DNA of 64,000 bases. It comes from Okeania sp. KiyG1 (GTDB taxonomy: Bacteria > Cyanobacteriota > Cyanobacteriia > Cyanobacteriales > Microcoleaceae). Position 1 is the first letter of the stretch. Each line of letters begins with the position of its first letter. The position numbers and the translations under genes were made by a program. Positions 501 through 55,012 of the stretch are shown here, one piece after another. The stretch spans positions 62,001 through 126,000 of the forward strand of contig NZ_BLZO01000117.1 in assembly GCF_014132355.1 (NCBI RefSeq), given 5' to 3'. Under the pieces are notes generated by a model. It was not told the DNA's origin. It saw only the letters and a list, made by a program, of their open reading frames with translations, and searched no databases.

Positions 501-881
501 TCATAAACGATAATGGTCAATTACTTCCTTAATTCTATTCGGAGCAGGAATACCTGATACAATAATTTCAATATCCCCTGTTCCCGCGCTAGCTATTTTG
601 ATAGTACCAGTATTGAACAAACGTTCCATCATACTCTGTTGAACTTGAATATTACGGATATGAGCGTGCATTACTTCATTAGTGTATCTACTAAGTAGAC
701 CTTGCTGTAAAATTGTACGCTTGTCAGTCACTATTAATGTTGTATTTTTACTTTTAATCCACCATACCAATAAGAATATAAGTCCTATTCCAAACAATAA
801 AATCAAACACAAATAAGCAATAAATAAAAGTGGATTACTTCTCCACATACTCGGGTTAATTCGGCAACTTTCTACTTCCAT
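501..881 (-). CDS. PH (bPH2/YdbT-type) domain membrane protein
   Basis: This 126-residue protein has a hydrophobic hairpin at about residues 18-42 (FIAYLCLILLFGIGLIFLLV) followed by a compact beta-rich domain with the pattern LIVTDKRTILQQGLLSR, RNIQVQQSMMERLFNTGTI and ending IKEVIDHYRL. That pattern is typical of bacterial PH domains, in which a short membrane anchor precedes a cytoplasmic PH fold. It is a single-domain protein, as often seen in cyanobacteria. Its role is unknown; bacterial PH proteins are usually linked to envelope or stress functions. It lies downstream of the vWA/GTPase block on the same strand but about 770 bases beyond that block's last gene, so co-transcription is unlikely. 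Confidence 0.75.
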   Translation of the reverse strand: MEVESCRINPSMWRSNPLLFIAYLCLILLFGIGLIFLLVWWIKSKNTTLIVTDKRTILQQGLLSRYTNEVMHAHIRNIQVQQSMMERLFNTGTIKIASAGTGDIEIIVSGIPAPNRIKEVIDHYRL

Positions 882-1239
882 CTACTAACTCCTTCAAAAT
901 TAAAAAGTCAAAAGTATAGCAATGTGCGCTGGCATATTTACAAATTACAAAAACTGTCTAATAGCTAAAAATCTTATATTATTCCAACGGAGATGCTGCG
1001 CAAACGGTTTTTTATTGCGCCAGATGAGCTGTTACCTTCCGGAGCTTTTGCTTGAGCACAGCGCTATAAGATTTTGTAGCCCAAAAACTTTTGAGAAGTT
1101 AAAAGTCAAAAGTCATGCATTAAGATTTTGTAGTTAAGTTTAAGGATGGGGTTTGTTAAGCGATCGCCACTAATAAAAAGTTTCTATAACTGGAAAAATC
1201 TAGTTATTTTCAAAGAAGCGACCGCTATTATTTATAAAT
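882..1239. other. Intergenic stretch with palindromic inserts
   Basis: There is no credible gene here. Two short reading frames lack ribosome-binding sites and family resemblance. The stretch contains palindromic repeat pieces of the GATGCTGCGCAAACGG type near 990 and ACCTTCCGGAGCTTTTGC near 1034, plus a HIP1 site (GCGATCGC) near 1160. Confidence 0.6.
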
Positions 1240-1605
1240 CAAATTATCAGCTAGTTAGTCATATAAATCAGGACAAATATCTTTACCCCACGCTGGTAAA
1301 CCTGCCTTTTTATCTTTCAATTTACGGTTAGGTAAATCAATTATACTAGGCATTTTATTCAACAAATCAAATCAAACAATATTGCATGGTTTTGAGTTTC
1401 TATCTGTAAAGGAATTTGCATTACCATCAAGCTTTAAATAAAACACCAATTTGCGATTAACATCACTGCAAAATCCAATAATTACAACTTTTAATAGGAG
1501 CTAAAAAACTATTAGTATTGGGTTAATTTTATTCAAATAAAGCAGGTACTTGAGAGTAATCTTTAATAGGACGAATTACTTTAGAAAAATGATTTGGAAT
1601 GAAGT
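1240..1605 (-). pseudogene. Relic of the 3' end of the neighbouring vWA gene
   Basis: On the minus strand this is a degenerate copy of the last part of the vWA gene at 2078-3007. The order of recognisable blocks is the same: the segment for FFAPTFQQ-like sequence, the segment around RDPSFYLKLDANANSFTDK, and the C-terminal GLPGWGKEFCPELYD region. There are frame breaks, and roughly 150 bases of the middle are deleted. It has no open frame of its own. It is best explained as a partial tandem duplication of the gene's 3' end that then decayed, with the small exported-protein gene now lying between the two copies. Confidence 0.8.
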
Positions 1606-1647
1606 GGGAGCATCTTGCTCCCATGCCAAGCACTCCTTTAGAAAGCT

Positions 1648-2028
1648 CTATCTAAGGCTCTCCAATAGATAGTTTGCCCATTCTAAAGCTTTAGTTGAAC
1701 TAGAGGGGTGACTTACCATAACAGTTACCCGACCACTTTGAGAGACTTCAGAACAATCAATGATTGCGGTAATTTCTGAGTTCTCTCCACTAACAAAAGC
1801 TGTGTTATTTACATTAATTGTATTACTAGGGGTTGGCAATTGTGCCTGTCCTAAAACATTCGCACTTTTCTCCAAACACTGAGATTGACTTAAGCCAAGA
1901 TAATCAAACCTAAATGACAAGGCAGGTCCTGCATAAGCAACTGCTAATGTTGCTATGTAGATAGACAAAGTACTTGAAGCTACAGATATAGTCTTTACAA
2001 TTTTAGAACCAAACCTCATATCACTCAT
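1648..2028 (-). CDS. Small exported protein, unknown function
   Basis: Start chosen at the ATG giving MSDMRFGSK, seven bases after a good GAGGAG ribosome-binding site; an upstream TTG would add five residues. The 126-residue product has a positively charged N-terminus, a hydrophobic stretch (TISVASSTLSIYIATLAVAYA) and a plausible signal-peptidase site after AYA, so it is probably exported. The mature part has two cysteines (QSQCLEK and IIDCSEV) that could form a disulfide. I recognise no family. It follows the vWA gene by about 50 bases on the same strand, so it may be the last gene of that operon. Confidence 0.6.
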   Translation of the reverse strand: MSDMRFGSKIVKTISVASSTLSIYIATLAVAYAGPALSFRFDYLGLSQSQCLEKSANVLGQAQLPTPSNTINVNNTAFVSGENSEITAIIDCSEVSQSGRVTVMVSHPSSSTKALEWANYLLESLR

Positions 2029-2077
2029 AATGAAACTCCTCAAAACTCAATCAAATATCAATTAAATTGTTAGCTAG

Positions 2078-3007
2078 TTAATCGTACAATTCAGGACAAA
2101 ACTCTTTACCCCACCCAGGTAAACCTGCCTTTGGATCTTCCAATTGACGGTTAAGTAAATCAATTATACTAGGCATTTTATTTAACAAATCAAATACAAT
2201 AATGTTGCAAGGTTTTGAATTTTTATCTGTAAAGGAATTCGCATTAGCATCAAGCTTTAAATAAAAACTTGGATCGCGATTAACATCACTGCCAAATCCA
2301 ATAATCACAATTTTTAATTCGTCTTGACTGTTAAGTTTGCCACAAGTTTCTTGAATAGAGTTAACAAAGGTATCGCGGTCGTCAAGTTCCCCATCTGTAT
2401 AGATAATTATAAATCCTCCTTCATTTGGCATTCGTGTCCCAAACCATTGTCCGACAATTTGTTGAAAAGTAGGAGCTAAAAAAGTGTTACTATCAGGTTG
2501 ATTTTCTTCAAATAGAGCAGGTACTTGAGAGTCATCTTGAATAGGACGAATTACTGTAGAAGAACGATTAGGACTAAAAAATGTTACAGTAATTTCATCG
2601 CAAATTCTTTCACCATTCATACCTTCTTGATTAAGAATATTATAAACATGACCTTCTATAACTTCTGCAATAGCTTTCCAACGACGTTCGTTATTGAATA
2701 AAGAGTCTCTTCGCACCATTGAACCGCTTTGGTCAATTAACATATAAACTTTACGGTCATAAATTTTTTTGTTAGGCATAATACTTCTCCTTTTTGTATT
2801 TGTAACTATTTGCTTTGTTTCTTCTGTGGGAGTAGAAACTTCAGAAGTTTCAACAACATTATAAGTCTTCCCACTGCTATATTTTTGGACGTAAGTAGAC
2901 GAGTTCTTTGCCCTATGCTTTTCCTCATCATTTTTTTCTGTTCTAGGTAGTTGTTTAACTACACTTTGTAGTAATTTGATTACTACATCTTGCAGAAATT
3001 TCAACAT
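2078..3007 (-). CDS. von Willebrand factor A domain protein
   Basis: The protein carries a vWA domain with an intact MIDAS start, LIDQSGSM at residues 90-97 counted from the long start, then a conserved Thr/Asp region (APTFQQIVGQWF and IIYTDGELDDRD). MIDAS domains bind a divalent metal and act in protein-protein contacts. The long start (MLKFLQDVVIK) lacks a convincing ribosome-binding site. An internal ATG at 2779 (MPNKKIYDRK) has AGGAG seven bases upstream and gives a compact 233-residue vWA protein. The first 76 residues may therefore be a linker, a degenerate extension or untranslated. It lies 45 bases after the 362-residue gene, so the two are likely co-transcribed. Co-occurrence with two GTPase genes suggests a role as an adaptor in an NTPase-controlled conflict or stress module (inference). 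Confidence 0.85.
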   Translation of the reverse strand: MLKFLQDVVIKLLQSVVKQLPRTEKNDEEKHRAKNSSTYVQKYSSGKTYNVVETSEVSTPTEETKQIVTNTKRRSIMPNKKIYDRKVYMLIDQSGSMVRRDSLFNNERRWKAIAEVIEGHVYNILNQEGMNGERICDEITVTFFSPNRSSTVIRPIQDDSQVPALFEENQPDSNTFLAPTFQQIVGQWFGTRMPNEGGFIIIYTDGELDDRDTFVNSIQETCGKLNSQDELKIVIIGFGSDVNRDPSFYLKLDANANSFTDKNSKPCNIIVFDLLNKMPSIIDLLNRQLEDPKAGLPGWGKEFCPELYD

Positions 3008-3052
3008 GAAAAATTGGCTAAATTTATCTCTATTTTATTGTTGGTTGTTTTG

Positions 3053-4141
3053 CTAGCTCCCTTCATCTTTACTTTTCTCCTCTAAATTTTCTGAACTTTT
3101 GAAGTTTACCATTGGTTCGACCAGAGATTTCAACCATTTAAACTGTGCTGAAACTAACTCTATCATCACAGATAAAGACAGTTTAACCTTGGATTTTGCT
3201 TGAGGAATTTCTATCCAACCATCGGTATCTACAAGTTTTGATAAACCACGCCATATTTGAGCTTCTATCAGAATTTCCATTTTTTTAAATCCTGTAACTA
3301 CTAACAGAGGAGCTATTTCTGATGGCAATTTAGAATTGTTAATTTCCTCTGCAAGTTGCTCTCTTAATTCTGGTATATTAGGGCCGATTTTCTTGATAGA
3401 ATCTGCTGCTTTACTTGCTGGAGTTTCTTCTGTTTTCTCTGCAGAAATAACTTCTAATAGTTTTGAAAAAGAAACATAGAAACCGTAATTGACAAAACTG
3501 GAATAAATATTATCCTCATTGGGAGAATATTCCACATCTGGAGGCAAATAAATTTCTTTAGGTTTAATCGAATCTAGTTCCAATGTATTGTAAATTTTGC
3601 CAAAGTCTAGAGAATTAATAGCTTTTCCCTCAAAAAAATTACTGACTATTTCCTCTGGCAAATTTAACTCTACTGCCAACTTTTGTTGATTCTGAAAATT
3701 GCTTTTTTCCAGACTACTTCTGACTCGCTCAACATCTTCTGGATTGACCTGTAACAAGTCTGGATTTTTTAACAACTCCACATACAAACTAATATCTTTA
3801 GTTAGTTCCTTACATTTTTCATCCACCAAAGCACGAGCAACTAACTGACGTAAAATCAGTTCATTATCATCAGTATCTTTGTCTACAAATGCCAGATCGA
3901 TTCTAATTTGCCGACCAATAATATCCAGACGTTTCTCTGGTTCAAGACCAGTTATTAATAGCAACAAAGAGGACTCCGGGAGTCTTTCTAAAACTACTGA
4001 TGGAGAGCTACTTTCAATTAAAGAAATAGAATTTTTTGACAGAGGAGGTATTTCTTCTTTAACTATTCCATCTGCAATGACTTTTATCCAACGGTAATCT
4101 TTATCTTGGTCATAACCCCGACTTTGAACATAAATCTCCAT
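3053..4141 (-). CDS. Uncharacterised 362-residue protein of the GTPase/vWA locus
   Basis: I do not recognise a family. The start (MEIYVQSRGYDQDKDYRWI) has GGAGG ten bases upstream. The N-terminal 100 residues look like a small alpha/beta domain with a repeated hydrophobic pattern (PSVVLERLPESSLLLLITGLEP). The middle is helical and acidic, and the C-terminal part carries helices rich in Lys and Leu. There is no membrane segment or signal peptide. It sits between the P-loop GTPase and the vWA gene on the same strand. GTPase-associated proteins of unknown fold are typical of published bacterial conflict systems with double-GTPases and vWA proteins, and I infer it is this locus's equivalent. Its 5' end is repeated three times upstream. 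Confidence 0.6.
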   Translation of the reverse strand: MEIYVQSRGYDQDKDYRWIKVIADGIVKEEIPPLSKNSISLIESSSPSVVLERLPESSLLLLITGLEPEKRLDIIGRQIRIDLAFVDKDTDDNELILRQLVARALVDEKCKELTKDISLYVELLKNPDLLQVNPEDVERVRSSLEKSNFQNQQKLAVELNLPEEIVSNFFEGKAINSLDFGKIYNTLELDSIKPKEIYLPPDVEYSPNEDNIYSSFVNYGFYVSFSKLLEVISAEKTEETPASKAADSIKKIGPNIPELREQLAEEINNSKLPSEIAPLLVVTGFKKMEILIEAQIWRGLSKLVDTDGWIEIPQAKSKVKLSLSVMIELVSAQFKWLKSLVEPMVNFKSSENLEEKSKDEGS

Positions 4142-4331
4142 AGTTTTTTTACCCTCCGTAAGTTATCTCTAGTCTGATTAATAAAGAAAATTCAGTGTTT
4201 CAAGTCTCCCTATTCCACTGAGATACTGATAACTGAAATTACCCTCCATAGCTTATCTCCAGTCTGATTAAATTAGCCATCATAAAAATCTTCTTTCCTC
4301 AAGAGCGAGAATATTTTTTAGGTGGGGAATG

Positions 4332-5113
4332 AGGTATTTATTCTTTAACTCCTCCATCTGCAATAACTTTTATCCAACGGTAATCTTTATCTTGGTCATA
4401 ACCCCGACTTTGAACATAAATCTCCATAATTTTTTGACCAGAAAAAAAAGCATAAAATCTTCCCTTTAAAGGGGATAAAAAAAATAAAATTCAGTGTTTC
4501 AAGCCTCCCTATTCCACTGATAACAGATAACTGATAACTGAAATTACCCTCCATAACTTATACCAATTCACTTTAAAGATGTCACAAATAGTTTCAGAAT
4601 TTAGATGTGAAATAATTTCCTGAAATTACTGTGGCATTAAAATTTTAACTTCCGCGAAAGTGAGGAATGCTGCTTAAACAAACTTCCCCTTGTTCACTAC
4701 TCCCTACTCCCTAAATTTTTGATTTTTTCACAGAGAGAGGAGGTATTTCTTCTTTAACTATTCCATCTGCAATAACTTTTATCCAACGGTAATCTTTATC
4801 TTGGTCATAACCCCGATTTGAGCATAAATCTCCATCGCTGTTTTTACCGAAAAATTATGGGTATGCGCCTCCCCTTTTAAGGAGATAAAAAAAAGAGAAT
4901 TACGTATTTTCTTGCCTCCTTATTGCAGAGGTACTGATAACTGATAACTGATAACTGATAACTGATAACTGAAATTACCCTCCGTAACTTATCTATATTC
5001 TGATTAAATTAGCCATAATAAAAATCTTCTTTTCTCCAGAGCGAGAATATTTTTTCGGTGGGGAATGAGGTATTTATTCTTTAACTCCTCCATCTGAATA
5101 TAAATCTCCATAG
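4332..5113 (-). repeat. Three relic copies of the 362-residue gene's 5' end
   Basis: The first 90-100 coding bases of the downstream gene (from the start codon through RWIKVIADGIVKEE) recur at about 4332-4427 and 4738-4834, and a shortened form recurs at about 5069-5113, all on the minus strand. Each copy is followed upstream by the same leader sequence, including TTACCCTCC plus a stretch of GATAACT heptamers. Most codons are unchanged, but each copy stops or loses frame soon after. This looks like tandem duplication of a unit made of leader plus gene start, with a repeat element in each unit. Confidence 0.8.
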
Positions 5114-5152
5114 TTGTTTCTACCAATGGATAATGGATAATTGATAATGAGG

Positions 5153-5518
5153 TAATTAGGGTTTGCTGAAAAAGTATGAGTGGTAAGGGTAGTAAAAGCT
5201 TGCACTTTTTAAGGGAAAAAAAATGATGAAACTTTTACTTTGAAAGGCTTTTATATTTAATCAGCAAGTCCTAATTATGGTTTGCGTATGGAAAGTCTTT
5301 TTGCTGAGGTAGGAGACAGGAGACAGGAGACAGGAGAAATGGGAATTTAGAAGAAGTAGGAGTAAGAATTGTAAGAGTGATTTTTCAGCCCAACTTTTGC
5401 CTAAAATACGCTCCTTTTTGAGCATGAAGAGCTGAAAACCAGGTACTTTTTTCGACCCCAAAAAGGCACTTGTCTTTATATGTCAATGCTTTTATATTTA
5501 ATCAGCAAGCCCTAATTA
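5153..5518. mobile_element. Two adjoining miniature inverted-repeat elements (TTAGGGTTTGCTGA family)
   Basis: The first copy spans about 5153-5277 and the second about 5271-5518. They share a junction. Outer ends read TAATTAGGGTTTGCTGA and, at the far side, AATCAGCAAGCCCTAATTA, which are imperfect inverse complements. Internal conserved blocks (GAGCATGAAGAGCTGAAAAC; AAGGCACTTGTCTTT) recur in copies at 15.0-15.4 kb and 54.8-55.0 kb, with partial ones at 34.5 and 62.1 kb. There is no coding capacity, so mobility would need a transposase in trans. Confidence 0.7.
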
Positions 5519-5548
5519 TTCATTATTCATTATTCATTATTCATTAAT

Positions 5549-6595
5549 TTATACCTCTAACAATTCATTTCCCTGTAAGATAGTAAAACCATCCGTAGTT
5601 TTCCTAGTTTTGACAAATTGTTTAATAGCTTGCTCGAACATACTTTCTTGCTGAAACACACCACGGACAGCACTTAAAATAGGCGATCGCTTATAAATTT
5701 GCTGATCGTTATGTCGCTTTAATAAAAAGCTCAACAAATATCGGAGTAAATGGTCATTATCTTTAGGGTTGTAAGTATCCATACTGCTATTCTTTTTAAA
5801 TACAAACTGGGGTTTATTAAAGTCTTCAATAAAGTAGCGGGAAAAAAACAAACATCCCACTGTTTGTATTGGCGTAGTAACTACAGCGATATTATTACTC
5901 CGACTGGGGTCGCTGAGAAACTTCAGCAAAGGTGAATACTTATCTTTTATACATCCTAAAAGTTTTTTAGCAGATTCTGAAGTTTGAACGTAAGTTTCAC
6001 ATTTTACAGGAGCTAAAATTACTAATTTAGGCTCCTTTAATCTTGTATAAGCAGCTTTAAATAAATCCAAAATTTCTTCTGGATGATTTTTAGCATCATG
6101 CCACCTGCCACTTCTGCCTTCTAGTAAATCCCAATTTTTACTATTTAAAGGATCGAGTTTATGAGGTTCAATCATTGCTGGAGTATCTATAGAAATAATT
6201 ACTGCGGCAGATTTTTTCAGCAAACCTTTCAAATATTCTCTACCCACAGGATTATCTTTTAAAACATAACTTCCTGGATAATCTCGAAAACTCAATTTAA
6301 GTAATTGCCGTTCTGTTTTAGACAGATAAAATGCAAATTCTGGTAAAGATTCTGGTCCTGCAACTGCAGATGTTCCTGCTATTCCTCCAGTACCTTCTGT
6401 AGCGATAATTTCATCTCCCATACTCTGGAGGTCTTGGAGATTTTTTTGCAGAATTTCTTCAGTAGCAGAATCTGGTTTAAACTCAAAATTTACCTCTTGA
6501 ATCTTACTAAACTGTTCGTAAATTGAGGTTAAAAGTGTAGTTTTACCAACACCACTTGCTCCTAACATTGTAGTAACAATTTCAGGCATAGCCAT
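5549..6595 (-). CDS. P-loop GTPase of the conflict-type locus (double-GTPase-like)
   Basis: This 348-residue soluble protein opens with a Walker A motif, LGASGVGKTT (residues 11-20). It has a G3-like DYPGS at 105-109 and a G4-like APVKCE at 195-200 instead of NKxD. The DxPG and VKCE pattern resembles GTPases that travel with vWA and GAP-type proteins in bacterial conflict systems, but I assign this from memory and motif only. The start ATG follows AGGAGG by eight bases, so translation should be strong. Downstream on the same strand lie the 362-residue and vWA genes; upstream is a dynamin-like GTPase gene. About 400 bases containing this gene's 5' end and leader are duplicated immediately upstream. 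Confidence 0.7.
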   Translation of the reverse strand: MAMPEIVTTMLGASGVGKTTLLTSIYEQFSKIQEVNFEFKPDSATEEILQKNLQDLQSMGDEIIATEGTGGIAGTSAVAGPESLPEFAFYLSKTERQLLKLSFRDYPGSYVLKDNPVGREYLKGLLKKSAAVIISIDTPAMIEPHKLDPLNSKNWDLLEGRSGRWHDAKNHPEEILDLFKAAYTRLKEPKLVILAPVKCETYVQTSESAKKLLGCIKDKYSPLLKFLSDPSRSNNIAVVTTPIQTVGCLFFSRYFIEDFNKPQFVFKKNSSMDTYNPKDNDHLLRYLLSFLLKRHNDQQIYKRSPILSAVRGVFQQESMFEQAIKQFVKTRKTTDGFTILQGNELLEV

Positions 6596-6880
6596 AATTT
6601 TATTCCTCCTAATTAATTTGAATTAGCTGTTAGCTTTTCACAAACAACTACCAGCTTTTTGAACTTGGATTAAAATTCCATGCTTCTATAAATAAGATAG
6701 TTTAAAATGAGGTTTAAATCCCCTTCGAAACGTAAAAAAAAACTTACTCCTACTGATTGCTGACTGCTTCTTTAATTACTAGACCTCTTGCAAAAGTTCT
6801 AATTAAATAAATTTAAGATATGAAATCAAGAATTTCATCCTCACTATTCCCTATTTCCTATTCCCTATTCCCTGACTTCT

Positions 6881-7012
6881 GGCAGAATCTGGTTTAAACT
6901 CAAAATTTACCTCTTTAATTTTACTAAACTGTTCGTATATTGAAGTTAAAAGTGTAGTTTTACCAACACCACTTGCTCCTAACATTGTAGTCACAATTTC
7001 TGGAATAGCCAT
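6881..7012 (-). pseudogene. Duplicated 5' end of the P-loop GTPase gene
   Basis: This stretch encodes a near-exact copy of the first 44 or so residues of the GTPase at 5549-6595, including the Walker A motif, starting MAIPEIVTTM and ending near FKPDSA. The sequence upstream (7013-7250) likewise copies the leader at 6596-6850, including AGGAGG before the ATG. It stops being homologous at a run of TATTCCC repeats. It is a recent partial tandem duplication of about 400 bases that also doubles the likely promoter region. Confidence 0.85.
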
Positions 7013-7251
7013 AATTTTAGTCCTCCTAATTAATTTTAATTAACTGTTAGCTTTTAACAAACAGCTACCAGCTTTTTGAACTTGGATTAAAATCCCATGC
7101 TTCTATAAATCAGATAGTTTAAAATGAGGTTTAAATCCCCTTATAAAAGTAAAAAAAACTTACTCCTACTGATTACTGACTGCTTCTTTAATTACTAGAA
7201 ATCTTGCAAAAGTTCTAATTAAATCAATAATTTCATCCCCACTATTCCCTA

Positions 7252-7382
7252 TTACCGAATAATTAAGGTAAAAATCCTCTCATGAGCAAGGAGAAACAAG
7301 AAAAAATTTTCCTTTTATTCAATCCTTTTCCTTTTAGGGATAGGTAATTATCAATTATCCATTATCAATTATCAATTATTGA
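7252..7382. repeat. Core-plus-heptamer repeat element
   Basis: The element begins TTACCGAATAATTAAGG, continues through an AGGAGAAACAAGAAAA core, and ends AGGTAATTATC followed by a run of CAATTAT heptamers. The same architecture recurs near 10.1, 12.3, 12.7 and 15.9 kb and, inverted, near 34.2, 51.5 and 57.0 kb. The two halves of the core are partly inverse complements, so a folded transcript or cruciform is possible. Confidence 0.75.
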
Positions 7383-7415
7383 ACTATTCCCTATTCCCTG
7401 ACTTCTGCAAGAAGT

Positions 7416-9803
7416 CTATTGTAAGAATTGTAGTTTTTCTATCTTATTTATTTCAACAGTTTCTTTAACCAAGTCCTGCCATTCTTGTCGATAGCGACTA
7501 TCTGGATCTTGTCCATATTCTTTCGGCCAAATAAAATCTTTATACTTATAAATAAAGGTTTGCCATTCCTCTTTTGCATTTTCAGAACGCAACACGCGGT
7601 CTATAAAATCTTCTACTTCATAAAAAGCAGTTTTTCCTGGTTCTGCGAAGATATTATCTAAATTATTTTCACACCGATAAACAGCTTCCCCATGCAATTC
7701 TTTTAAATAGTCAGATATTTCCTTAGCCATTTTTTTTCTAGTCTCTGGATTTTCTTTTTCTACACGAGATATTTGCACTTCGTTCCGATTAGGGTTGAGA
7801 TTGTTTAAAAGGGGACGAATCATATAACGAAGATTTGCTTTGTAAGACATTTCAAATTTATAAAGACTCGTAAAAGGTTGTTTGAGATTTATAAGTCCGT
7901 CATCTATTTCTGCAACCATAACTTTGAGAAACTTACTTCCCTCAAGACCCCTTAAAGCTGGAATATCACCCAAATTTGCCTTTTCTATCAGCACATTTGT
8001 CAGACGGACTTTGATTCGTTCCACAGAATTATTTAAACCAGTATCCATGGCTTCAAAATGTTGAGTTAAATGAGTCCGAATATCATTTAAACACCTGTTA
8101 AAAGTGCTTTGCCAATCCCCAATATCTGCTTTTTTTCCCATTATATCCTCAATTTCAGGTAATCCCGAATCTTCCTGACATTGTTGAATAACGGCTTCAG
8201 CTTGTTCTTTAAAACCATCATCTTCAGAATTTTTTGATTCTTGTTCCGCATCTATTTCATAAAGAAAATCTTCTAAAGCAGATGCTAAATCTATCCAAAG
8301 TTTGTTAAAGAGTCGCAAAAACTTACCCATCTCATTGATATCTGCTTCCTGGGATTTTTGCATCCAATCTTGACTTGCTTTATTCAATTCATCACTAATA
8401 TTTTTGTGCAGTTGATTTAGACTTTCTTGATAAGTTCTGGCATATTTATCATCCAGACTTTTAATATTACTTGCCAAATAATCTAATACCATATCTAAAA
8501 CTCCATTAGCTGCTGTATCATTAGAACAATCAGCAATCCTACATTCAACCACATTAATATGTTTATCTCGGTAAGTAGATTGATGTTTTTGACAAGCATC
8601 TATATTGTCATTATTCCCACTAACATGATTGAGAATCATAAAAGAACGATTCTCTAAATTATTTAATGCTTGATAGGCAGTTTTATACAAATCCGTATCT
8701 CGTCTTTCCCACCCATAACGCAAAGGATCGGGGCGACGAATAAACAAAACTAAATCAACTTCTTGCCCTAATGTTTCTAATATTAATTGTTCATCTCCTA
8801 ACCTTGTATCTCCCAAACCAGGAATGTCAACTAAGGCAACTTTACCAACATCTTGATTAGGAAATTTACAGTAAATTTTCACTTCTCTAACTGGCAAATG
8901 ATCGAAGGTTTTGAGTTTGCCATTATTATCTCTAGGTTGAGAAACATACTTATCAATTTCTGCTTTAGAAACTCTTTGCGTTGTAGGAGAATTAGGCTTT
9001 AATAAATTTCTGTAATGAGACAAATTTTCGTGATAATCTCCCTTCAGATGTTCATACATTGACTCCCCAGTAGAATTACTACCATCAAAATTAGTATTAG
9101 GCAGTGGTTTAGCAAAATCATCAAGAGTTTCTGGTACTACCCCTAAACCTAATTCCTGATAGTAAGGTCCGATTACTTCCTGGATAAAAGAATTTTCTGA
9201 ATGTAATATAACTTCAGCATAAGTTTCTCCTTCGTGATGATAAATAGTGCTGCGAACTGCCGTGCAAGCACCCCCTTTCCGAGCAGGAATTACATCATCC
9301 TCCAAACCACTAATTCTTTGTAAAAATGTACTTTTTCCTTGCCCCATCAATCCAACCACACCAATATTTAAAGTATTACGAGAAAGACGCTTCCTTAAAA
9401 ACTCTAATTGGCTTAAATGTTCTGTAATATTTCCCCTAAGATTGAGAAAATCAAGACCACTTAAAAAATCTTTTGCTTGAGGATTATTTACGCTTCCAAT
9501 TAAACGAATGCGACGCTCTTCAATATTGAATAAATTACTTGCTAGTTCCCCTAAATGTTCCTCAACATTTTTGATTTTCGCAACTAAAGGAACTCGTTGT
9601 TGAATAATTTCAGCGATTTTTTTCGATCTTGTTGACATAGTGTTAATTTCCTTTTCTTTAGCTAAACTTATTTTTTCTTGCATTTGTTCTTGAATATATT
9701 CAATCCATTCATAGTCAAATATTTGGGCATAAATAGGATTAGCAACTTTTAAAATTTTGCTCGACTGGGTAGTTTTTTTTGTAAGCATTAAGCCGTCAGC
9801 CAT
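7416..9803 (-). CDS. Dynamin-like large GTPase
   Basis: The open frame encodes 795 residues. A GTPase domain is clear: G1 at GLMGQGKST (151-159), a candidate G2 threonine in CTAVRST, and G3 at DIPGLGD (326-332). The G4 position reads ILNHVSG, so the usual NKxD or TKxD is not intact. A long helical C-terminal half (about residues 440-795, rich in Glu, Lys and Leu) would form the stalk of a bacterial dynamin-like protein that remodels membranes or assembles on them. The probable start of an independent gene is the ATG at 9638 (MSTRSKKIAEI). Residues 7-45 of the longer frame match the tail of an AAA-like NTPase domain (LKVANPIYAQIF, EWIEYIQEQ) and continue in frame, pointing to an ancestral fusion with the broken NTPase gene upstream. 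It is on the same strand as the GTPase and vWA genes. Confidence 0.8.
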   Translation of the reverse strand: MADGLMLTKKTTQSSKILKVANPIYAQIFDYEWIEYIQEQMQEKISLAKEKEINTMSTRSKKIAEIIQQRVPLVAKIKNVEEHLGELASNLFNIEERRIRLIGSVNNPQAKDFLSGLDFLNLRGNITEHLSQLEFLRKRLSRNTLNIGVVGLMGQGKSTFLQRISGLEDDVIPARKGGACTAVRSTIYHHEGETYAEVILHSENSFIQEVIGPYYQELGLGVVPETLDDFAKPLPNTNFDGSNSTGESMYEHLKGDYHENLSHYRNLLKPNSPTTQRVSKAEIDKYVSQPRDNNGKLKTFDHLPVREVKIYCKFPNQDVGKVALVDIPGLGDTRLGDEQLILETLGQEVDLVLFIRRPDPLRYGWERRDTDLYKTAYQALNNLENRSFMILNHVSGNNDNIDACQKHQSTYRDKHINVVECRIADCSNDTAANGVLDMVLDYLASNIKSLDDKYARTYQESLNQLHKNISDELNKASQDWMQKSQEADINEMGKFLRLFNKLWIDLASALEDFLYEIDAEQESKNSEDDGFKEQAEAVIQQCQEDSGLPEIEDIMGKKADIGDWQSTFNRCLNDIRTHLTQHFEAMDTGLNNSVERIKVRLTNVLIEKANLGDIPALRGLEGSKFLKVMVAEIDDGLINLKQPFTSLYKFEMSYKANLRYMIRPLLNNLNPNRNEVQISRVEKENPETRKKMAKEISDYLKELHGEAVYRCENNLDNIFAEPGKTAFYEVEDFIDRVLRSENAKEEWQTFIYKYKDFIWPKEYGQDPDSRYRQEWQDLVKETVEINKIEKLQFLQ

Positions 9804-10013
9804 CAGCTATCAGCTAACCTCCTATGGTCGTAACTGCGTTAACAGCTATTGCTTTTAATTTAGGATAAAAGCTTTATTAATTGTGTTACTACAAAAGTTT
9901 GCTCCATTACCTTTAAAGTCAGTTGTTAATTTAAACACTGTCCTATATGAGAGAATCTTGTTGCTGATAGCTGACAGCTAATAGCTGTTTGTGCAGCATT
10001 TTGCAGGAAATGC
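9804..10013. repeat. Repeat insert separating the AAA-like gene from the dynamin gene
   Basis: The stretch is made of GCTGATAGCTGACAGCTAA-type tracts at both ends and two palindromic pieces (CTCCTATGGTCGTAACTGCG and GTGCAGCATTTTGCAGG). Coding sequence for one AAA-like domain appears to stop on its far side and resume on its near side, with a short AAAAAA stretch shared at both edges. Confidence 0.6.
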
Positions 10014-10106
10014 CTACGCTTTTTTAATAACCAAACCAGAAGTTAACAAATCCCAATGACTATTATCTATTTCTGCAAAATTAATTCCACCATCCCTTAA
10101 AATTTT

Positions 10107-10226
10107 ACCGAATAATTAAGGTTTAAAGCCTCTCCTTTAAAGGAGAAACAAGAAAATATTTTCCTTTTATTCAATCCTCTCTTTGAAAAGAAGAGGTAAT
10201 TATCCATTATCAATTATCAATTATTG
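10107..10226. repeat. Core-plus-heptamer element inside AAA-like gene B
   Basis: A full copy of the family starting TTACCGAATAATTAAGG and ending in CAATTAT heptamers. Coding sequence of the AAA-like domain stops at its edge (DIDSLGNYLQ) and resumes on the other side (LRDGGINFAEID), so it is an insertion into a formerly continuous gene. Confidence 0.8.
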
Positions 10227-10728
10227 AAGATAGTTACCCAAACTATCAATATCTGCAATCCTCCAAAAATAATTTTCAATCTCTGTAAAATGAGACTGCA
10301 AATCATCATTTTTCCATTTTGCAACTATTTCATTCTTCACTATTTGTTCTATATACTTTTCCCAACTTACTGCTGCATCTTTTTCCCCTTGAATAACAAC
10401 CAAATGACAGATAAATTGAGTTAAAAAAGGTTGCTCTCCCGTCCATTGGAGAATAAGCTCAATAACCAGTTTTGGCTCAGTGGTAATTTCCTCTATTCCA
10501 CCCCAGAGTTCTTGACAATTTCCAACTAGAGGCTCAATTTCCAGATAATTACCTATATTAAAAGCTACACCTTTATCCGTTAAAATTTCGGAAGGTTTTG
10601 CTACTCCCAGAATCACAAAATTTAACTTTCTGAAAATACTATTATCAACTTCACTAGATATAGCATTTCTCAAAAAGCGTGAGATACAGTTGTTTTTGTT
10701 TTTTCTATCCCCTGTTTCTCGAATTACT

Positions 10729-10800
10729 ACTCCCTACTCCCTACTCCCTACTCCCTACTCCCTACTCCCTACTTCCTACTTCCTACTTCCTACTCCCTAA
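10729..10800. repeat. Tandem TACTCCC heptamers
   Basis: About ten copies of the heptamer TACTCCC or TACTTCC in a row, interrupting AAA-like gene B between its Walker B region and the LNFVILGVA strand. This is a short tandemly repeated repetitive tract of the kind common in cyanobacteria. Confidence 0.9.
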
Positions 10801-11004
10801 AACAAACGAATTTTGCGCCTCACCAATATGAGAATTGCTATAAGCTCTTAATAACTCCCATAAACTCATTTTGTAATCCCCAATTAATCAGAGATTGAAT
10901 TTCATCTAAAAAATCACTAGATGACTGTCAATTTTAGATAAAATTTCCCCTTTAAGAAAGTCACAAAACCTTTTACCCGGTGGAGAATTATATTTACCAA
11001 AAAA

Positions 11005-11150
11005 TAGGGTCTAAAGTCTCCCCTTTTAAGGGGATGAAAAAAATATTCGATTCAGTATTTTCAATTCACTTTGCTTTCCTAGGTCATGCTGCGCAAACAG
11101 ACAGAGGTACTGATAACTGATAACTGATAACTGATAACTGAAATGACTTT
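11005..11150. repeat. Core-plus-heptamer element (GATAACT type) inside AAA-like gene B
   Basis: It contains a TCCCCTTTTAAGGGGAT palindromic core, a palindromic GGTCATGCTGCGCAAAC piece and a run of CTGATAA heptamers ending GAAATGAC. It supplies a false C-terminus ([10 protein letters not shown]) to the N-terminal part of the broken NTPase. Very similar elements lie near 4.45, 4.9, 19.2, 31.0 and 60.5 kb. Confidence 0.75.
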
Positions 11151-12330
11151 CCCAATATTTTTCCAACTTAAATAAAACAGAATTTTCGTGACTATCCAAA
11201 ACTAAAAGCTCATCTATCTTCTTACAAACTTCATCTAGAACACTGTACCAAAATGAACCATCAGAACTAACCACACCAAACCCTTGCAAATTAATTTGAA
11301 CACATACTATTCCTTCATCTGTTAAAAGTTTAGCAGTTCTAACCATCAAGCTAGACTTTCCCATTTGTCGGGGAGCTAAAATAGAACAAACTCGATTATG
11401 AGTATGAACATTTTTAGCAAAATCAAATAATTCCCGATCTATAGAACGCTTGACATAAGTTTCAGCTTCGTAAGGCAAAGTTCCACCTTGAATCTGAGTA
11501 AAAACTGCTCCCCTCAGAACCAGTCATAAAAAATTTACCTCACCATTTATAAATCTAAATTTTCCTCAAAAAACCTTCTATATAACTCACAACTTACTTC
11601 TTCTTGATTACCCCTATATTTAATTAAACCAATTTGTTCTAATTGAAATTTTGCAAAAGCATCTTTACACTTTTCACCACGCATAATTTTCTGAAAACAA
11701 ACCATAAGTTGCTTATTTTCAGGAGCTTGTAATTTCTCTAAATGAGATAACAAATAATCACTAAAAGCTCCACTAATTTTTGACGCCTCCCCTTCTAACT
11801 CCTCCAAACTAATATTAGTTTGACTGATTTTATAAAGCGCCCTTTGAACCAAACTAGGATGACCCCCAATTAATTTCATCAAACAATTTATATTGTTTTC
11901 ATCCCAACTTAAACCATAAATTTTAGCCAAACTTAAAATACATTCTGGTGTAAATTCTAAAAGTTCTATAGGAGTACCTACATTCTGCAATGGAGACCCC
12001 TTAAACTTAGCATCTAGATATGGTTCAGTTGAATAAGCAATTACCACACTAGGCCAAATAACTTTTTTACTTGAAACCAACTTCATTTTTTCTTCATTCC
12101 AAGTTCTTAATACCAGCAAAAAATCAGTTTGAGTCCGTTTACCTAATATTGAATCAATACCATCTATTAATAAAGTTTTTCCTGTTGCCGCAAATTTTGG
12201 TACTTCAGCAATCTTTTAAAGATATATTCTTCCAGATAATCTGTACAATTTTTGCCAGAAGCTTTGTGTTTATTCCAAGCAATTTCTAAGTCTGGCGGTT
12301 TCAGACCTGGAATTAACTTAGTAAAACCTG

Positions 12331-12478
12331 TTACCGAATAATTAAGGTTAAAAGCCTCTCCTTTAAAGGAGAAACAAGAAAAAATTTTCCTTTGAGTCAA
12401 TACTATCCCTTTTCAAGGATAGGTAATAATTAATTATTAATTATTAATTATTAATTATTAATTATTAATTTTTGAAGA
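12331..12478. repeat. Core-plus-heptamer element inside AAA-like gene A
   Basis: Starts TTACCGAATAATTAAGG and ends with a tract of TTAATTA heptamers. It lies between codons for FRRFTEEVF and TGFTKLIPGL, in the region after Walker A. Confidence 0.8.
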
Positions 12479-12670
12479 CCTCTTCTGTAAACCTCCGAAA
12501 CAGCTTTTCTGAGTCATTCAAAGTATCATCTCCAAAAGCATCTGTTGCCAAATCTATACGAGCAACAACTTCCTTTTTTTCCTTTTCTAAAAAATGACTA
12601 ATTCTATCTAACAAAGAAGATTTTCCCATTCCCTTTGCTGCTTTTACTCTAATAAAAGGAACAGATTGAT

Positions 12671-12797
12671 TTACCGAAATATTGTGGTTTAAAGCCTCCC
12701 TTTGAAGGGGATAATAAATAAAAATTTTCCTTTAAGTCAATCCTCTTCTTTTCAAGGAAAGGTAATTCTAAATTCTAAATTATAAATTCTAAATTCT
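12671..12797. repeat. Second core-plus-heptamer element inside AAA-like gene A
   Basis: Starts TTTACCGAAATATTGTGG, has a CCTCCCTTTGAAGGGGAT core and ends with AATTCTAAATT-type tracts. It separates the linker (ELTLAR) from the strand leading into Walker A (SVPFIRVKAAKG). The same family has a different end tract here than in the copy 340 bases away. Confidence 0.8.
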
Positions 12798-13203
12798 TGA
12801 AATCTCTTGCTAAAGTTAATTCTCGCTGGCACTTTTCATCAGCATCTCGTTTGATATATAAAATAGAATCCAAAGGAACTATCCCCGTTGGTAAAGTACC
12901 TTGATAAACAAAAGACTTCAAAATAATTGTATTCGCTAGTTTCTTTCCTCGTTCACCATTTGTTGGAGGAGTTGAATTTCTTTTAATCTCAATCAAGTTA
13001 GATTTTTGAAATTTTTTTAACCTTTTTTCTGCATAATTATTATCAATTTTCAGGGAAGTATAACTCCTCAAAAGTTCGGCAAAACCAGCATAACTAAGGT
13101 TACCTTTCCATCCAAGAAGTATAAGGTAGCGAGCCAAAATTTCAAATTCTTTTTGCTCTTGTTTGTCTAACTGTGAAAGAAGTAAATGGTGGGAGTTCAT
13201 CAA

Positions 13204-26101: not shown

Positions 26102-27853
26102 CTAGAATGACAAGCAAACCACCCGGAAACCCACATTGTTAATGCAGATGTTTGTATTATCCCAGTCACGATCAGCGCTCCGACACCACCAGGGATAGTC
26201 ATTCCAACTGCCACCACAGAGCACTCGTAACTCATTATTTTCGCTACTTTCCCAAGTACTGTCATCAGTGGACACACCTTCATAGCTATTATGCCAAATA
26301 TCCTGACACCACTCGTCTACATTCCCATGCATATCATATAAACCAAAAGCATTGGGAGGAAAACTTCCCACATCAGTAGTATGTTCTCGATATAGACCTT
26401 TAGGCGCATTGCTATAAGTATACTTGCCATTGTAGTTAACTAAATCAGTCGTAATAGTAGGGCCAAAATAAAAAGGAGTAGTCGTACCAGCGCGACAAGC
26501 ATATTCCCACTGATTCTCACTAGGTAGTCTATAGGTTTTCCTAGTCTTCTCAGATAGCCTTTGACAAAATTCTGTAGCGTTATGCCATGTTACTCTTTCT
26601 ACTGGGCGATTTCCTCCTTTAAAGTGAGAAGGATTTTCCCCCATAATGACTAAATATTGGTCTTGAGTAATGGGGTATTTACTCATACAAAAAGGTTGAA
26701 GAGTTACTTGACGCTGGGGACTTTCTTTATCAGTTCTTCCAGCTTCGTTTTTCGGTGAACCTATGAGAAAACCACCACCAGGAATATAAACCATTTCTAA
26801 TTTAATACCATTACCTAAATCTTCTATTTTTTGCCTAGCATTTCTCTGGGTGCGCTTGATGATTTTGCCAGAGTTGTTGACCGTCACAACCTCAAAAGTA
26901 AACGTTTCTCCTTTTGCTGCTTCTTTTGTAAATATTGGAAATATTTTTGGTTTATAAATAGAGTTGATTTTTTTTTGAGATTTAGGGTTAACAACCGATA
27001 ATATCTCTCCTACATTTTGAAACCTTTTCTTAGTCGCTCCCATAATCATTCGATCTAACAGTTTAGCAACTTCATCACTTACGGTAAACTTTAAATATTC
27101 TCGCCACACCCATTCACCTTCACTCACATCAAATAAATCAAAAGGTTCTACCTGAGTTAATAAATGAATACAAGTTACACCCAAACTATAAATATCACTA
27201 GCAAAAGTTGCTTTTCCTAATGCTTGCTCTGGGGCAGCATATCCTGCCGAACCAATTACAGTTCCTGTCACAGCTAAAGCAGTCTTTGTTGCATATTTAG
27301 CTGCCCCAAAATCTACTAATAATAATTGGTTATCTTTCCTTCTCCTAATTATATTCTCTGGTTTAATATCTCGATGAATTACCTGTCGAGAATGAATAAA
27401 TTCCAATACGGGCAATAAACTTTTTAATAACTCCCAAATTTGCCTTTCATCAAAAGTTCCTGACAACTCTAACTCCTGTTTTAAATTTTGCCCGTCGATA
27501 AATTCTTGCACTAAATACTGTCGGTTATCCTGAGTAAAATATGCCAAAAGTTCGGGTATTTGTGGATGTCTACCTAAACTATCTAAACGTTCAGCTTCTT
27601 GGGCAAATAATAAGGCGGCTTTTTCTAGGTTTTTGGTTCCTTGAGCTTGAGGAAAAAATTGTTTAATTACACAAAAAGGTTTTGATGGTCTGTACTCATC
27701 TACAGCTTGAAAAGTTCTGCCAAAACCACCTTGCCCAATAATTTTTAGAGCGCGATAACGTTCGACTAAAATTAATTTTTCACCGCAGCTTTGACAAAAT
27801 TTTGTTTCTGGTGGGTTGGTTTTTAAACAATCTGGGTTTAGGCATTGGGTCAT
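26102..27853 (-). CDS. Ser/Thr protein kinase with C-terminal FGE (sulfatase-modifying factor) domain
   Basis: Start placed at MTQCLNPDC, giving 583 residues. A zinc knuckle (CLNPDCLKTNPPETKFCQSC, paired Cys) precedes a Hanks-type kinase: glycine loop GQGGFGRTF, VIK lysine, HRDIKPEN, DFGAAKY and APEQ, all intact. After a linker comes an FGE-like domain (LEMVYIPGGGFLIGSP, ERVTWHNATEFC, LPSENQWEYACRAG, FGLYDMHGNVDEWC, GFRVV). In cyanobacteria such FGE/C-type-lectin folds on kinases are usually ligand-binding rather than enzymatic. The last 38 codons are hypervariable against the paralogue at 29.5 kb, as in retroelement-diversified proteins. The related tnpB element lies upstream in the opposite direction. 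Confidence 0.9.
   Translation of the reverse strand: MTQCLNPDCLKTNPPETKFCQSCGEKLILVERYRALKIIGQGGFGRTFQAVDEYRPSKPFCVIKQFFPQAQGTKNLEKAALLFAQEAERLDSLGRHPQIPELLAYFTQDNRQYLVQEFIDGQNLKQELELSGTFDERQIWELLKSLLPVLEFIHSRQVIHRDIKPENIIRRRKDNQLLLVDFGAAKYATKTALAVTGTVIGSAGYAAPEQALGKATFASDIYSLGVTCIHLLTQVEPFDLFDVSEGEWVWREYLKFTVSDEVAKLLDRMIMGATKKRFQNVGEILSVVNPKSQKKINSIYKPKIFPIFTKEAAKGETFTFEVVTVNNSGKIIKRTQRNARQKIEDLGNGIKLEMVYIPGGGFLIGSPKNEAGRTDKESPQRQVTLQPFCMSKYPITQDQYLVIMGENPSHFKGGNRPVERVTWHNATEFCQRLSEKTRKTYRLPSENQWEYACRAGTTTPFYFGPTITTDLVNYNGKYTYSNAPKGLYREHTTDVGSFPPNAFGLYDMHGNVDEWCQDIWHNSYEGVSTDDSTWESSENNELRVLCGGSWNDYPWWCRSADRDWDNTNICINNVGFRVVCLSF
26117..26235 (-). other. Hypervariable C-terminal segment (variable-region-like), copy 1
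   Basis: Codons for RVLCGGSW through GFRVVC. The variable positions fill with residues such as D, Y, W, N, T and I on a fixed G-G-x-W...CRSA...GF(R)VV framework. That is how the variable region of diversity-generating retroelement targets looks in C-type-lectin/FGE folds. No template repeat or reverse transcriptase is in this window. Confidence 0.55.
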
Positions 27854-27994
27854 GGTTGCTCTCCTGATTTTATCTAAGTGTTGCGAGAAGACCCGCGCTC
27901 TGCGGTTACGGGAGCGTCGTATGGGAATCGCAATCAATGCTGATATTTCAAAGACTTTGTGTTAAACTGTGGAAAGTTAATTAGCTAGTAGTAA

Positions 27995-29200
27995 ATGGTC
28001 GAGAAAGCATACAAATTTAGAGTCTACCCAACACCAGAACAAGAAAACTTGTTGCGGAGGACTTTAGGCTGTGTACGCCTCATCTACAACAAAGCTTTAG
28101 CTGCGAGGACTCAAGCTTGGCATGAGAACAAAGAACGGGTAGGATATACTCAAACCTCAGCCATGCTTACGAATTGGAAGAAACAGGAAGATTTAGATTT
28201 TCTGAGTGAAGTTAGTAGTGTCCCATTGCAACAAGGCTTGAGGCATTTACAAACTGCATTCACTAACTTTTTTAGTGGGCGTGCTAAATACCCTAATTTT
28301 AAGAAAAAGCGGAATGGTGGTAGTGCAGAGTTCACAAAATCCGCATTTAAGTGGAAAGATGGTCAAGTCTACCTAGCTAAATGTGCTGAACCATTACCGA
28401 TCAGATGGAGTAGGCAACTTCCACAAAACTGTGTACCAACGACAATTACCGTAAAACTTGACCCAAGTGGTAGATGGTCAGTGTCTTTGAGAGTCAATGA
28501 CCCTAGAGATTTAAAACTGAACCCAGTAACCAAGCAAGTTGGTATTGATTTAGGAATTACCAGTTTAGTTACTACCAGTGATGGAGAAAAAATTGCTAAC
28601 CCAAAAAAACTCAACAAGTTACACAAAAAATTAAGGTTAGCTCAGAAGTCTCTAAAGAGAAAAACCAAGGGGTCTAATAACTATCAAAAGGCCAGGCTGA
28701 AAGTAGCGAGAATACATGCAAAAATCAAAGATTCAAGACTTGACTTTACTCACAAGCTGACTACTCAACTGATTCGTGAAAATCAAACGATAGTAGTTGA
28801 AGATTTAGCTGTAAAAAACATGGTTAAGAATCACAAGTTAGCCAGAGCTATCAGTGATGCTAACTGGGGAGAGCTGGTAGGACAATTAGAGTACAAGGCT
28901 GAGTGGTACGGAAGACAATTGATAAAAATCGACCGATATTTTCCTAGTTCTAAGCGTTGCTCTAATTGTGGTCATACAGTAGAAAAGTTACCTCTAAATA
29001 TTAGAGAGTGGGATTGTCCAGAGTGTGGTAATCACCATGACCGCGATATCAACGCTTCGATAAACATTTTGGCTGCGGGACTCGCAGTGTCAGTCTGTGG
29101 AGCGACCGTAAGACCTGAAGGGAGTAAGTCTCGGAAGGCAGGTGCTAAGAAACAGAAAGCCCCTAACAGCAATGCTAGGGAATCCCACGCTGTCTCGTAG
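27995..29200 (+). CDS. tnpB: TnpB, second lineage, RNA-guided nuclease of an IS200/IS605-type element
   Basis: A 401-residue TnpB with N-terminal HTH (MVEKAYKFRVYPTPEQ) and RuvC residues D in GIDLGITSL, E in VVEDLAVKNM and D in DRDINASINI. The zinc finger CSNCGH...CPECG is also present. Everything needed for nuclease activity is present. The sequence differs greatly from the copy at 16.4 kb, so it is a separate element family. The right end runs to about GTCGGGAGGATGCCAA (29221), where the guide would start. A shortened relative with the same two ends lies 2.3 kb upstream. The element separates the two paralogous kinase-FGE genes. Confidence 0.92.
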   Translation: MVEKAYKFRVYPTPEQENLLRRTLGCVRLIYNKALAARTQAWHENKERVGYTQTSAMLTNWKKQEDLDFLSEVSSVPLQQGLRHLQTAFTNFFSGRAKYPNFKKKRNGGSAEFTKSAFKWKDGQVYLAKCAEPLPIRWSRQLPQNCVPTTITVKLDPSGRWSVSLRVNDPRDLKLNPVTKQVGIDLGITSLVTTSDGEKIANPKKLNKLHKKLRLAQKSLKRKTKGSNNYQKARLKVARIHAKIKDSRLDFTHKLTTQLIRENQTIVVEDLAVKNMVKNHKLARAISDANWGELVGQLEYKAEWYGRQLIKIDRYFPSSKRCSNCGHTVEKLPLNIREWDCPECGNHHDRDINASINILAAGLAVSVCGATVRPEGSKSRKAGAKKQKAPNSNARESHAVS

Positions 29201-29403
29201 AGCAGCGTCGGGAGGATGCCAACTTCTTAGTTTCTACTTCTTTCTACTTCAATAGAATTCCCGATAGGTAGTAAGGATAATAAAAAGTATGGAGATATCT
29301 GTTTTATTTGTAGGTAGGGTAAAGATTTTCTCACCCTAACATTAAAAATCATCTTGGTTTTGTAATTTGGAGTAAAAATGTGAATCAAGGAGATAGCTTC
29401 CTC

Positions 29404-29430: not shown

Positions 29431-29455
29431 GAATGAAAGAGGGAAAAACAGGAAA

Positions 29456-54758: not shown

Positions 54759-55012
<254 letters not shown>

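Follow-up and report, generated by a model that had tools for sequence, protein, structure and literature searches.

A recurrent gene set of a dynamin, a DO-GTPase2-like GTPase and an unannotated third protein, with a decaying copy in Okeania sp. KiyG1

Introduction

GTPase-centred conflict systems that pair a DO-GTPase with a GAP1 protein have been described, with the remark that cyanobacteria almost completely lack them (Kaur et al. 2020, PMC7159879); the same article counts vWA proteins and STAND-type NTPases among the parts of conflict systems, and its main text does not contain the word dynamin. Operons with an FtsZ-like protein, a vWA protein, a GTPase and a kinase were proposed in 2010 to remodel membranes (PMC2875224), and an HSR1 clade of cyanobacterial dynamins with an HSR1-type GTP-binding protein encoded downstream was described in 2018 (PMC5827413). 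It has also been known that the dynamin DynA of Bacillus subtilis delays lysis after phage infection (PMC8844932), and that a DO-GTPase is encoded in some psp operons, for which a membrane-stress role was predicted (PMC11237479). Here, we analysed a stretch of 64,000 nucleotides (the window) from the 11-Mb genome of the cyanobacterium Okeania sp. KiyG1 (contig NZ_BLZO01000117.1, positions 62,001 to 126,000), and in it a minus-strand block that encodes a dynamin-like GTPase, a second, smaller P-loop GTPase and a 362-aa protein. These three genes, called core genes below, form a real recurrent gene set, for which we found no existing name.

The set resembles the DO-GTPase/GAP1 systems as described in PMC7159879 in several respects. 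In both, a DO-GTPase switch is followed by a dedicated partner gene, the partner often has a C-terminal transmembrane segment (with cadherin-type tails sometimes there and Ig-type repeats once here), and the occurrence is mobile and patchy; further partners are a vWA protein, a kinase and a polymer-forming tubulin GTPase there, and a vWA protein, a kinase and a dynamin here. It differs in that no GAP1 similarity was detected in the partner with sequence profiles, that neither GASH nor FNIII was found in a Pfam scan of 10 window open reading frames (ORFs), the relatives not all having been searched, and that the small GTPase is present in 22 of 285 sampled cyanobacterial genomes, in contrast to the near absence reported for that phylum. 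With the FtsZ-like 1/vWA/GTPase/kinase systems of PMC2875224 the set shares a polymerising GTPase, a vWA protein, a diverged GTPase and a proposed action on the membrane, whereas the polymerising protein is an FtsZ-tubulin homologue there and a dynamin here, and the third protein differs; the Pfam scan of the 10 window ORFs, which did not extend to relatives, gave no FtsZ-tubulin homologue. Since no GAP1 similarity was detected, we regard the set as a variant and not as a member of the described class, although its plan resembles both the DO-GTPase and the FtsZ-like membrane systems.

The HSR1 clade of PMC5827413 may overlap with the first two core genes. However, the extended P-loop stated there for nearly all members (GxxxxGKS/TxL/INALL/I) was absent from all members compared here (0 of 37 and 0 of 23), and the HSR1-clade section of that article mentions no third gene, AAA_35 fusions or vWA protein. 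As to the GTPase encoded downstream here, MMR_HSR1 matched it in 10 of 23 members and DO-GTPase2 in 23 of 23 (Pfam, E ≤ 0.01). DynA is comparable in being a bacterial dynamin with an influence on how phage infection ends, but the abstract of PMC8844932 mentions no DO-GTPase partner. A literature search gave no paper that joins a dynamin with a DO-GTPase, and no title on the three-gene set was among its listings.

Results

Conservation of the three core genes

The minus-strand ORFs on which the original prediction had been built were all present when the ORFs were rechecked (Table 1). Below, L and G numbers are labels of loci and of sampled genomes, respectively; the nearest kin at this locus are Okeania sp. 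SIO3I5 (L087) and Trichodesmium sp. MAG_R04. In all 22 GTPase loci that were fetched outside the window's own genome, the dynamin, GTPase and 362-family genes lie on one strand in a fixed order, with gaps of -67 to 130 bp between them. The third core gene is interrupted in L084. A scan of genome contigs with a GTPase alignment gave 119 relatives, of which 80 were kept. We scored 100 of 102 loci, and dropping 7 duplicates left 93 that differ in GTPase sequence; L161 and L163 stand outside the 93 because the ORF caller picked opposite-strand ORFs over their GTPase. The dynamin is encoded upstream in at least 78 of the 93 loci, the 362-family protein downstream in at least 88, and both in at least 75, and these counts are lower bounds since several dynamin-less loci start at or near the GTPase. 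A six-frame recheck added a 362-family gene in L142 and the start of one at the contig end of L137, and revealed none in L114, L116 and L122. In the dynamin-less loci that were scanned for it (L116, L119 and L128), the large upstream genes encode Ser/Thr kinase, AAA_16, GAF and histidine-kinase domains.

The families also go together at the level of genomes. The 362-family profile matched 21 of 278 cyanobacterial genomes, and the dynamin profile matched 33 of the 278, 22 of them strongly, which are the same 21 genomes and G042. When the 362-aa protein itself was searched, 31 of 292 cyanobacterial genomes gave matches, 11 of these only in or from an inserted domain that is described below. Tree distances of the three proteins over 66 rows were correlated (0.71, 0.73 and 0.58), and none of 999 permutations was as high. 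Based on these results, we hold it to be nearly certain that dynamin, GTPase and 362-family protein are a real recurrent core gene set. The expectation that the genes of the block stay neighbours elsewhere was thus borne out for these three and failed for the vWA and AAA_35 genes, which occur in a subset of loci. A small exported protein had also been counted as a component; since 1 of 40 genomes searched carries it, the window's own, we place this ORF outside the conserved system.

A separate arrangement was observed in L158 (positions 1239-7601, plus strand), a Bacillota contig, in which the dynamin is followed by two successive GTPase/362-family pairs.

Family assignment of the GTPase and the dynamin

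The DO-GTPase2 matches of the GTPase family reached 2e-11 at best. In 10 further members, DO-GTPase2 was found in 10 of 10, as the best match in nine and the second in one, and above the cut-off in five. When the family was compared by hhalign with 6 DO-GTPases of actinobacterial GAP1 loci, this single comparison gave a probability of 92% and an E value of 5e-7. The DYPG and VKCE motifs noticed earlier in the 348-aa ORF were confirmed, and 23 rows all share the D and G of DxxG as well as the CE of VKCE. The Walker B-region glutamate of DO-GTPases, read here as the residue that follows DxxG (DTAGE in the actinobacterial proteins), is missing from the window protein (DYPGS); 17 of 93 relatives have it, with one of the 93 rows unread. 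Judged from these profile matches, the family is DO-GTPase2-like.

The window dynamin matched Dynamin_N with 32.7 bits (Pfam cut-off 27). The best PDB matches of the dynamin profile were mitofusin FZO1, MnmE and immunity-related GTPases, all of them weak (E 3e-4 or worse). SynDLP was considered as the family of this dynamin and rejected, as it was absent within the set limits from the PDB matches of both the dynamin and its profile, and its own paper places it in a different clade, KGK. In L157 (positions 6531-8957, plus strand), we observed a fusion of a Ser/Thr kinase, a TPR part and a DO-GTPase2-like GTPase beside a 362-family gene, and no upstream dynamin was found there.

The 362-family

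The 362-aa protein has no Pfam match, which upholds the earlier view of it as a component without a known family, and NCBIfam and PADLOC scans of the window proteins gave no specific name. It had no match in a search against plasmids, nor had a GTPase relative against phages. The N-terminal ~220 residues of the family consist of two conserved blocks. Among 88 distinct proteins of at least 220 aa, a strong hydrophobic segment close to the C-terminus was found in 61. Lys and Arg are more frequent before this segment in 41 of them, more frequent behind it in 7 and balanced in 13, and the tail beyond it is shorter than 10 residues in 22 family members. The simplest reading is that the family is often tail-anchored, with its domain predicted to lie in the cytoplasm. 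Five Ig-type repeats were found in the tail of the L110 protein (Okeania hirsuta).

The window protein contains an insert of ~100 residues that, among the fetched relatives, occurs in L087, L088 and L096. Proteins elsewhere that match the insert carry this domain N-terminally. Of 10 loci with insert-only matches, nine were scanned and L037 was left out; the nine proteins comprise three AAA_35 NTPases, five other STAND/AAA-type NTPases and one with TPR, and Pfam called the domain helix-turn-helix (HTH) in six of them and not in the window protein.

A relationship of the 362-family to GAP1 was considered, as three motifs in the same order look alike by eye, and it was rejected. No GAP1 model was among the matches listed (25 of 94 families) when 22 members were searched with Pfam, and hhalign against 11 GAP1-N2 proteins gave a probability of 0.2%, with 16 of 100 column shuffles scoring as high and 14.1 for the reversed control versus 14.9. 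The profile comparison thus gave no support, and the likeness is a lead for fold comparison.

Accessory genes and fusions

The vWA protein of the window does have the metal-ion-dependent adhesion site (MIDAS) that had been ascribed to it. Its scores of 21-22 bits are below the curated Pfam cut-offs (27 and 23.8), and it gave no match in the PDB. As a lasting member of the set it could not be retained, since a vWA gene follows the 362-family gene in 18 of 93 loci. Of 16 vWA-labelled rows with enough room, the window included, 14 group in a single part of the GTPase tree that comprises 23 rows (SH-like approximate likelihood ratio test, SH-aLRT, 89), and the other two are long branches. The vWA labels require 7 changes on this tree versus 15.1 in shuffles, and 0 of 500 shuffles were as low. 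A MoxR AAA+ ATPase beside the vWA protein, as in MoxR-vWA ternary systems, was not found in the block, in which the NTPase pieces match AAA_35.

In L081, L087, L094, L133 and L144, the dynamin gene codes for a protein of 1136-1320 aa in which AAA_35 precedes the dynamin part (by Pfam in L133). HEPN_Swt1 lies between the AAA_35 and dynamin parts in L133 (Pfam, 7e-30), and this HEPN stretch alone matches L081 (5e-21) and L144 (1e-12). The RX4H motif of HEPN domains (PMC3710099) is kept in these three of the five unbroken fusions, and no HEPN was found in a search of the other two (L087 and L094). A vWA domain is fused to AAA_35 in L133 and L094 (Pfam), and the AAA_35 pieces of the window are also matched by six further vWA proteins, which are 619-678 aa long. 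Both the vWA and the AAA_35 genes are accessory and confined to a subset of loci.

Decay of the window copy

The original prediction had counted two broken AAA-like NTPases at the head of the block. One of them stands: the upstream gene corresponds to a single AAA_35 protein, 462 aa long in L087, and lies in pieces over 13203-11550. The other is the broken N-terminus of the dynamin. When the 1136-aa AAA_35-dynamin protein of L087 was aligned with the window, it matched collinearly, in pieces, over 11527-7419, with the window dynamin ORF as its residues 342-1136 at 90% identity; because of this collinearity, the two fragments upstream of the dynamin ORF (Table 1) are its N-terminal part and not a separate NTPase. 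The AAA_35 pieces of the window score above the Pfam cut-off.

Two breaks of the AAA_35 gene coincide with copies of a repeat of ~120-140 bp, and a third copy lies inside the AAA_35-dynamin gene. The block as a whole holds four copies of this single repeat family, three of them inside genes. Repeat insertions explain some but not all of the breaks. The GTPase, 362-aa and vWA genes have uninterrupted reading frames. Partial copies of gene ends (the 5' ends of the GTPase and 362-aa genes and the 3' half of the vWA gene) adjoin their own genes within 1233-7228 and are 82-94% identical to them. Elsewhere in this genome, contigs C87 and C89 hold decayed pieces of core genes, and the Trichodesmium locus L096 is fragmented throughout. 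The gene set is conserved, and its copy in the window is decaying.

Table 1. Positions of the core genes, accessory genes, repeats and partial copies in the window
Feature	Position	Strand	Basis or remark
Dynamin-like GTPase ORF, core gene 1, 795 aa	7416..9803	-	Dynamin_N above Pfam cut-off
DO-GTPase2-like P-loop GTPase, core gene 2, 348 aa	5549..6595	-	P-loop GASGVGKT, G3 DYPG, G4-like VKCE
362-aa protein, core gene 3, family without annotation	3053..4141	-	362-family downstream of GTPase elsewhere
Insert domain within the 362-aa protein	3494..3799	-	Matches elsewhere are N-terminal HTH-like domains of STAND/AAA_35-type NTPases
vWA protein, 309 aa, accessory gene	2078..3007	-	MIDAS DxSxS (LIDQSGSM)
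Small exported ORF	1648..2043	-	ORF list
AAA_35 fragment of the dynamin gene	10221..10673	-	Inside match to residues 178-352 of the L087 fusion
AAA_35 fragment of the dynamin gene, P-loop part	11026..11478	-	AAA_35 37.2 bits; inside match to residues 6-156 of the L087 fusion
Broken AAA_35 NTPase gene	11547..13203	-	Fragments 11547-12119 (AAA_35 152.6 bits), 12167-12400 and 12775-13203; four-piece match to the 462-aa L087 protein
Short interspersed repeat copy, interrupts AAA_35 gene	12670..12795	.	Break between residues 134/135 of the L087 protein
Short interspersed repeat copy, interrupts AAA_35 gene	12327..12466	.	Break between residues 200/201 of the L087 protein
Short interspersed repeat copy within AAA_35-dynamin gene	10104..10225	.	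In match with extra letters: 216 aligned positions versus 175 residues
Short interspersed repeat copy directly 3' of dynamin ORF	7248..7388	.	Self-comparison
Partial tandem copy of GTPase 5' end	6882..7228	-	Source 6465-6812, 93.7% identical (self-comparison)
Partial copies of 362-aa gene 5' end	4331..4848 (4331-4561 and 4733-4848)	-	Self-comparison; stops inside
Partial copies of vWA gene 3' half	1233..1598	-	Self-comparison and L087 alignment

Plasmid copies and other phyla

All three core genes are present on a plasmid of Nostoc carneum, and the GTPase adjoins the dynamin on plasmids of Aulosira laxa and Streptomyces aurantiacus (L215), the third gene of the latter giving no match. The Acrocarpospora isolates L161 and L163 carry all three core genes, as does Nonomuraea (L221), in which the 11.85-Mb record is labelled plasmid but is chromosome-sized. 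On plasmid pNsp_h of Nostoc sp. ATCC 53789 (L219, positions 659-5692, minus strand), the gene of a homologous dynamin runs divergently from a cluster of four genes, of which two are DO-GTPase-like, one of these above the Pfam cut-off, and the others encode 282- and 812-aa proteins without a Pfam match. The set is found in mobile neighbourhoods with variable modules, as seen in the plasmid copies and the variable fusions.

The Chloroflexaceae (L136) and Hyphomicrobiales (L138) copies were rejected as evidence of spread to other phyla: the GTPase tree places them within cyanobacteria, and their contigs may have been misbinned. L142 and L158, too, come from metagenome-assembled genomes. On the Calothrix plasmids L217 and L222, a dynamin homologue was observed beside filamentous-haemagglutinin-type or surface-antigen genes, and no GTPase of the core family was found in these stretches.

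Other features of the window

Three further observations were made outside the block. A 1771-aa DnaB-like ORF (45241-50556, minus strand) has two intein-like insertions by eye, the first with many near-identical repeats. Two mutually similar Ser/Thr kinase ORFs (26102-30966, minus strand) have FGE-sulfatase-like parts by eye, and three similar substrate-binding proteins, glycine-betaine type by eye and the third shorter, are encoded at 51888-56902 on the plus strand.

Discussion

To the gene content, gene order, co-occurrence, domains, fusions and breakage observed above we add a model, in which we infer a physical complex, an order of events, a trigger and an outcome. We suggest that the core genes encode a GTP-controlled membrane system made of a dynamin, a DO-GTPase2-like switch and an often tail-anchored third protein, and we give this mechanism about an even chance. 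The third protein would most likely be a protein of the cytoplasmic or thylakoid membrane whose ~220-aa domain faces the cytoplasm; it would sense an insult such as phage infection or envelope damage and hold the small GTPase. A change in the nucleotide state of the GTPase would then allow the dynamin to assemble there, and the membrane would be remodelled, sealed or destabilised. The switch would have become more elaborate in the lineage of the window, where an AAA_35 (STAND-like) NTPase is fused to the dynamin, a second AAA_35 NTPase is encoded upstream, a vWA adaptor would have been added downstream, and the third protein has no membrane segment and bears an HTH-like adaptor otherwise found on STAND-type NTPases; in some relatives, a HEPN RNase-like domain is located between AAA_35 and dynamin. 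The delay of lysis by DynA after phage infection (PMC8844932) and the dynamin that faces two DO-GTPase-like genes on plasmid pNsp_h speak for this model. A role in biological conflict is plausible, as suggested by domain kinship and architecture. The proposal of a variant conflict-type system with a dynamin and a new component is accordingly a fair reading of the three genes found together, of the DO-GTPase kinship and of a 362-aa protein without a Pfam family, and its full gene list is not retained.

In animals, the immunity-related GTPase logic has a small regulator GTPase hold a dynamin-class effector inactive. The core genes could be a bacterial counterpart, in which a DO-GTPase-type regulator would hold the dynamin-class effector inactive until a membrane-anchored sensor reports infection, whereupon the dynamin would coat or remodel the membrane; in some lineages, the fused STAND-like NTPase and HEPN RNase would make it an inflammasome-like membrane effector. 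We consider this more specific idea unlikely.

Several observations weigh against the GTP-controlled membrane system that we prefer. First, two window genes are broken, so the window copy may not work. Second, the 348-aa GTPase of the window matches DO-GTPase2 with 20.8 bits, below the cut-off of 27, and in its P-loop part only (Pfam). Third, the dynamin is missing in 9 of the 79 loci whose upstream stretch exceeds 2.5 kb, and no GTPase was seen within the ~1.1 kb examined upstream of one 362-family copy (G048:C201, L032). Fourth, shared descent of related genomes contributes to the tree correlation, so that interaction is not proven by it. Finally, 27 of the 88 362-family proteins have no strong hydrophobic segment, and hydropathy shows no C-terminal one in the window protein or in those nearest to it.

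Here, we need to consider that the set may serve envelope or thylakoid stress and repair and not immunity, which we regard as a tentative but serious possibility. The anchored protein would sense the membrane or wall and the GTPase would license the dynamin to seal it, comparable to the phage-shock (Psp) and FtsZ-like/vWA/GTPase systems. Such a role is consistent with the membrane segment followed by short, coiled-coil-like (by eye) or Ig-type tails, with the role predicted for the DO-GTPase of some psp operons (PMC11237479) and with the remodelling proposed for the FtsZ-like operons (PMC2875224). When defence genes were sought with PADLOC, 100 each of 134 neighbour and 267 control proteins (at least 150 aa) were scanned, and 119 models matched in the neighbours and 71 in the controls, as totals with many near-duplicate models and no per-protein counts. 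Both lists hold restriction-modification and other models, and among the 25 families listed the most frequent occurred in 3 of 100 neighbours and 2 of 100 controls, and no clear excess of defence genes nearby can be read from these totals, which would also be compatible with stress and repair. Patchiness (22 of 285 and 21 of 278 genomes), plasmid copies, exchangeable modules and HEPN would, however, be more typical of accessory conflict systems.

It is also conceivable that the set causes abortive infection, the activated dynamin rupturing or depolarising the membrane, HEPN cutting RNA in the fused variants and the infected cell dying. The RX4H-bearing HEPN of three fusions and the place of vWA and STAND-type NTPases in conflict systems (PMC7159879) point in this direction, whereas most loci show no HEPN, AAA_35 or vWA and DynA delays lysis instead of causing it (PMC8844932), and we think this outcome quite improbable. 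That the genes are unrelated chance neighbours in the window genome is hardly credible, being refuted for the three core genes by their single order in at least 75 of 93 distinct loci and by the identity, with one exception, of the 362-family and dynamin genomes, although most of the homologous loci or genomes lack vWA, AAA_35 and exported ORFs and the L032 copy has no GTPase seen nearby.

Through this gene set, a family of cyanobacterial dynamins gains two near-constant partners, one of them from an unannotated family, and the function of these bacterial dynamins becomes a testable three-gene question. The finding also places DO-GTPase-like switches in a phylum that was reported to have hardly any matching systems, and shows single proteins in which a dynamin is joined to a STAND-like NTPase and a HEPN domain.

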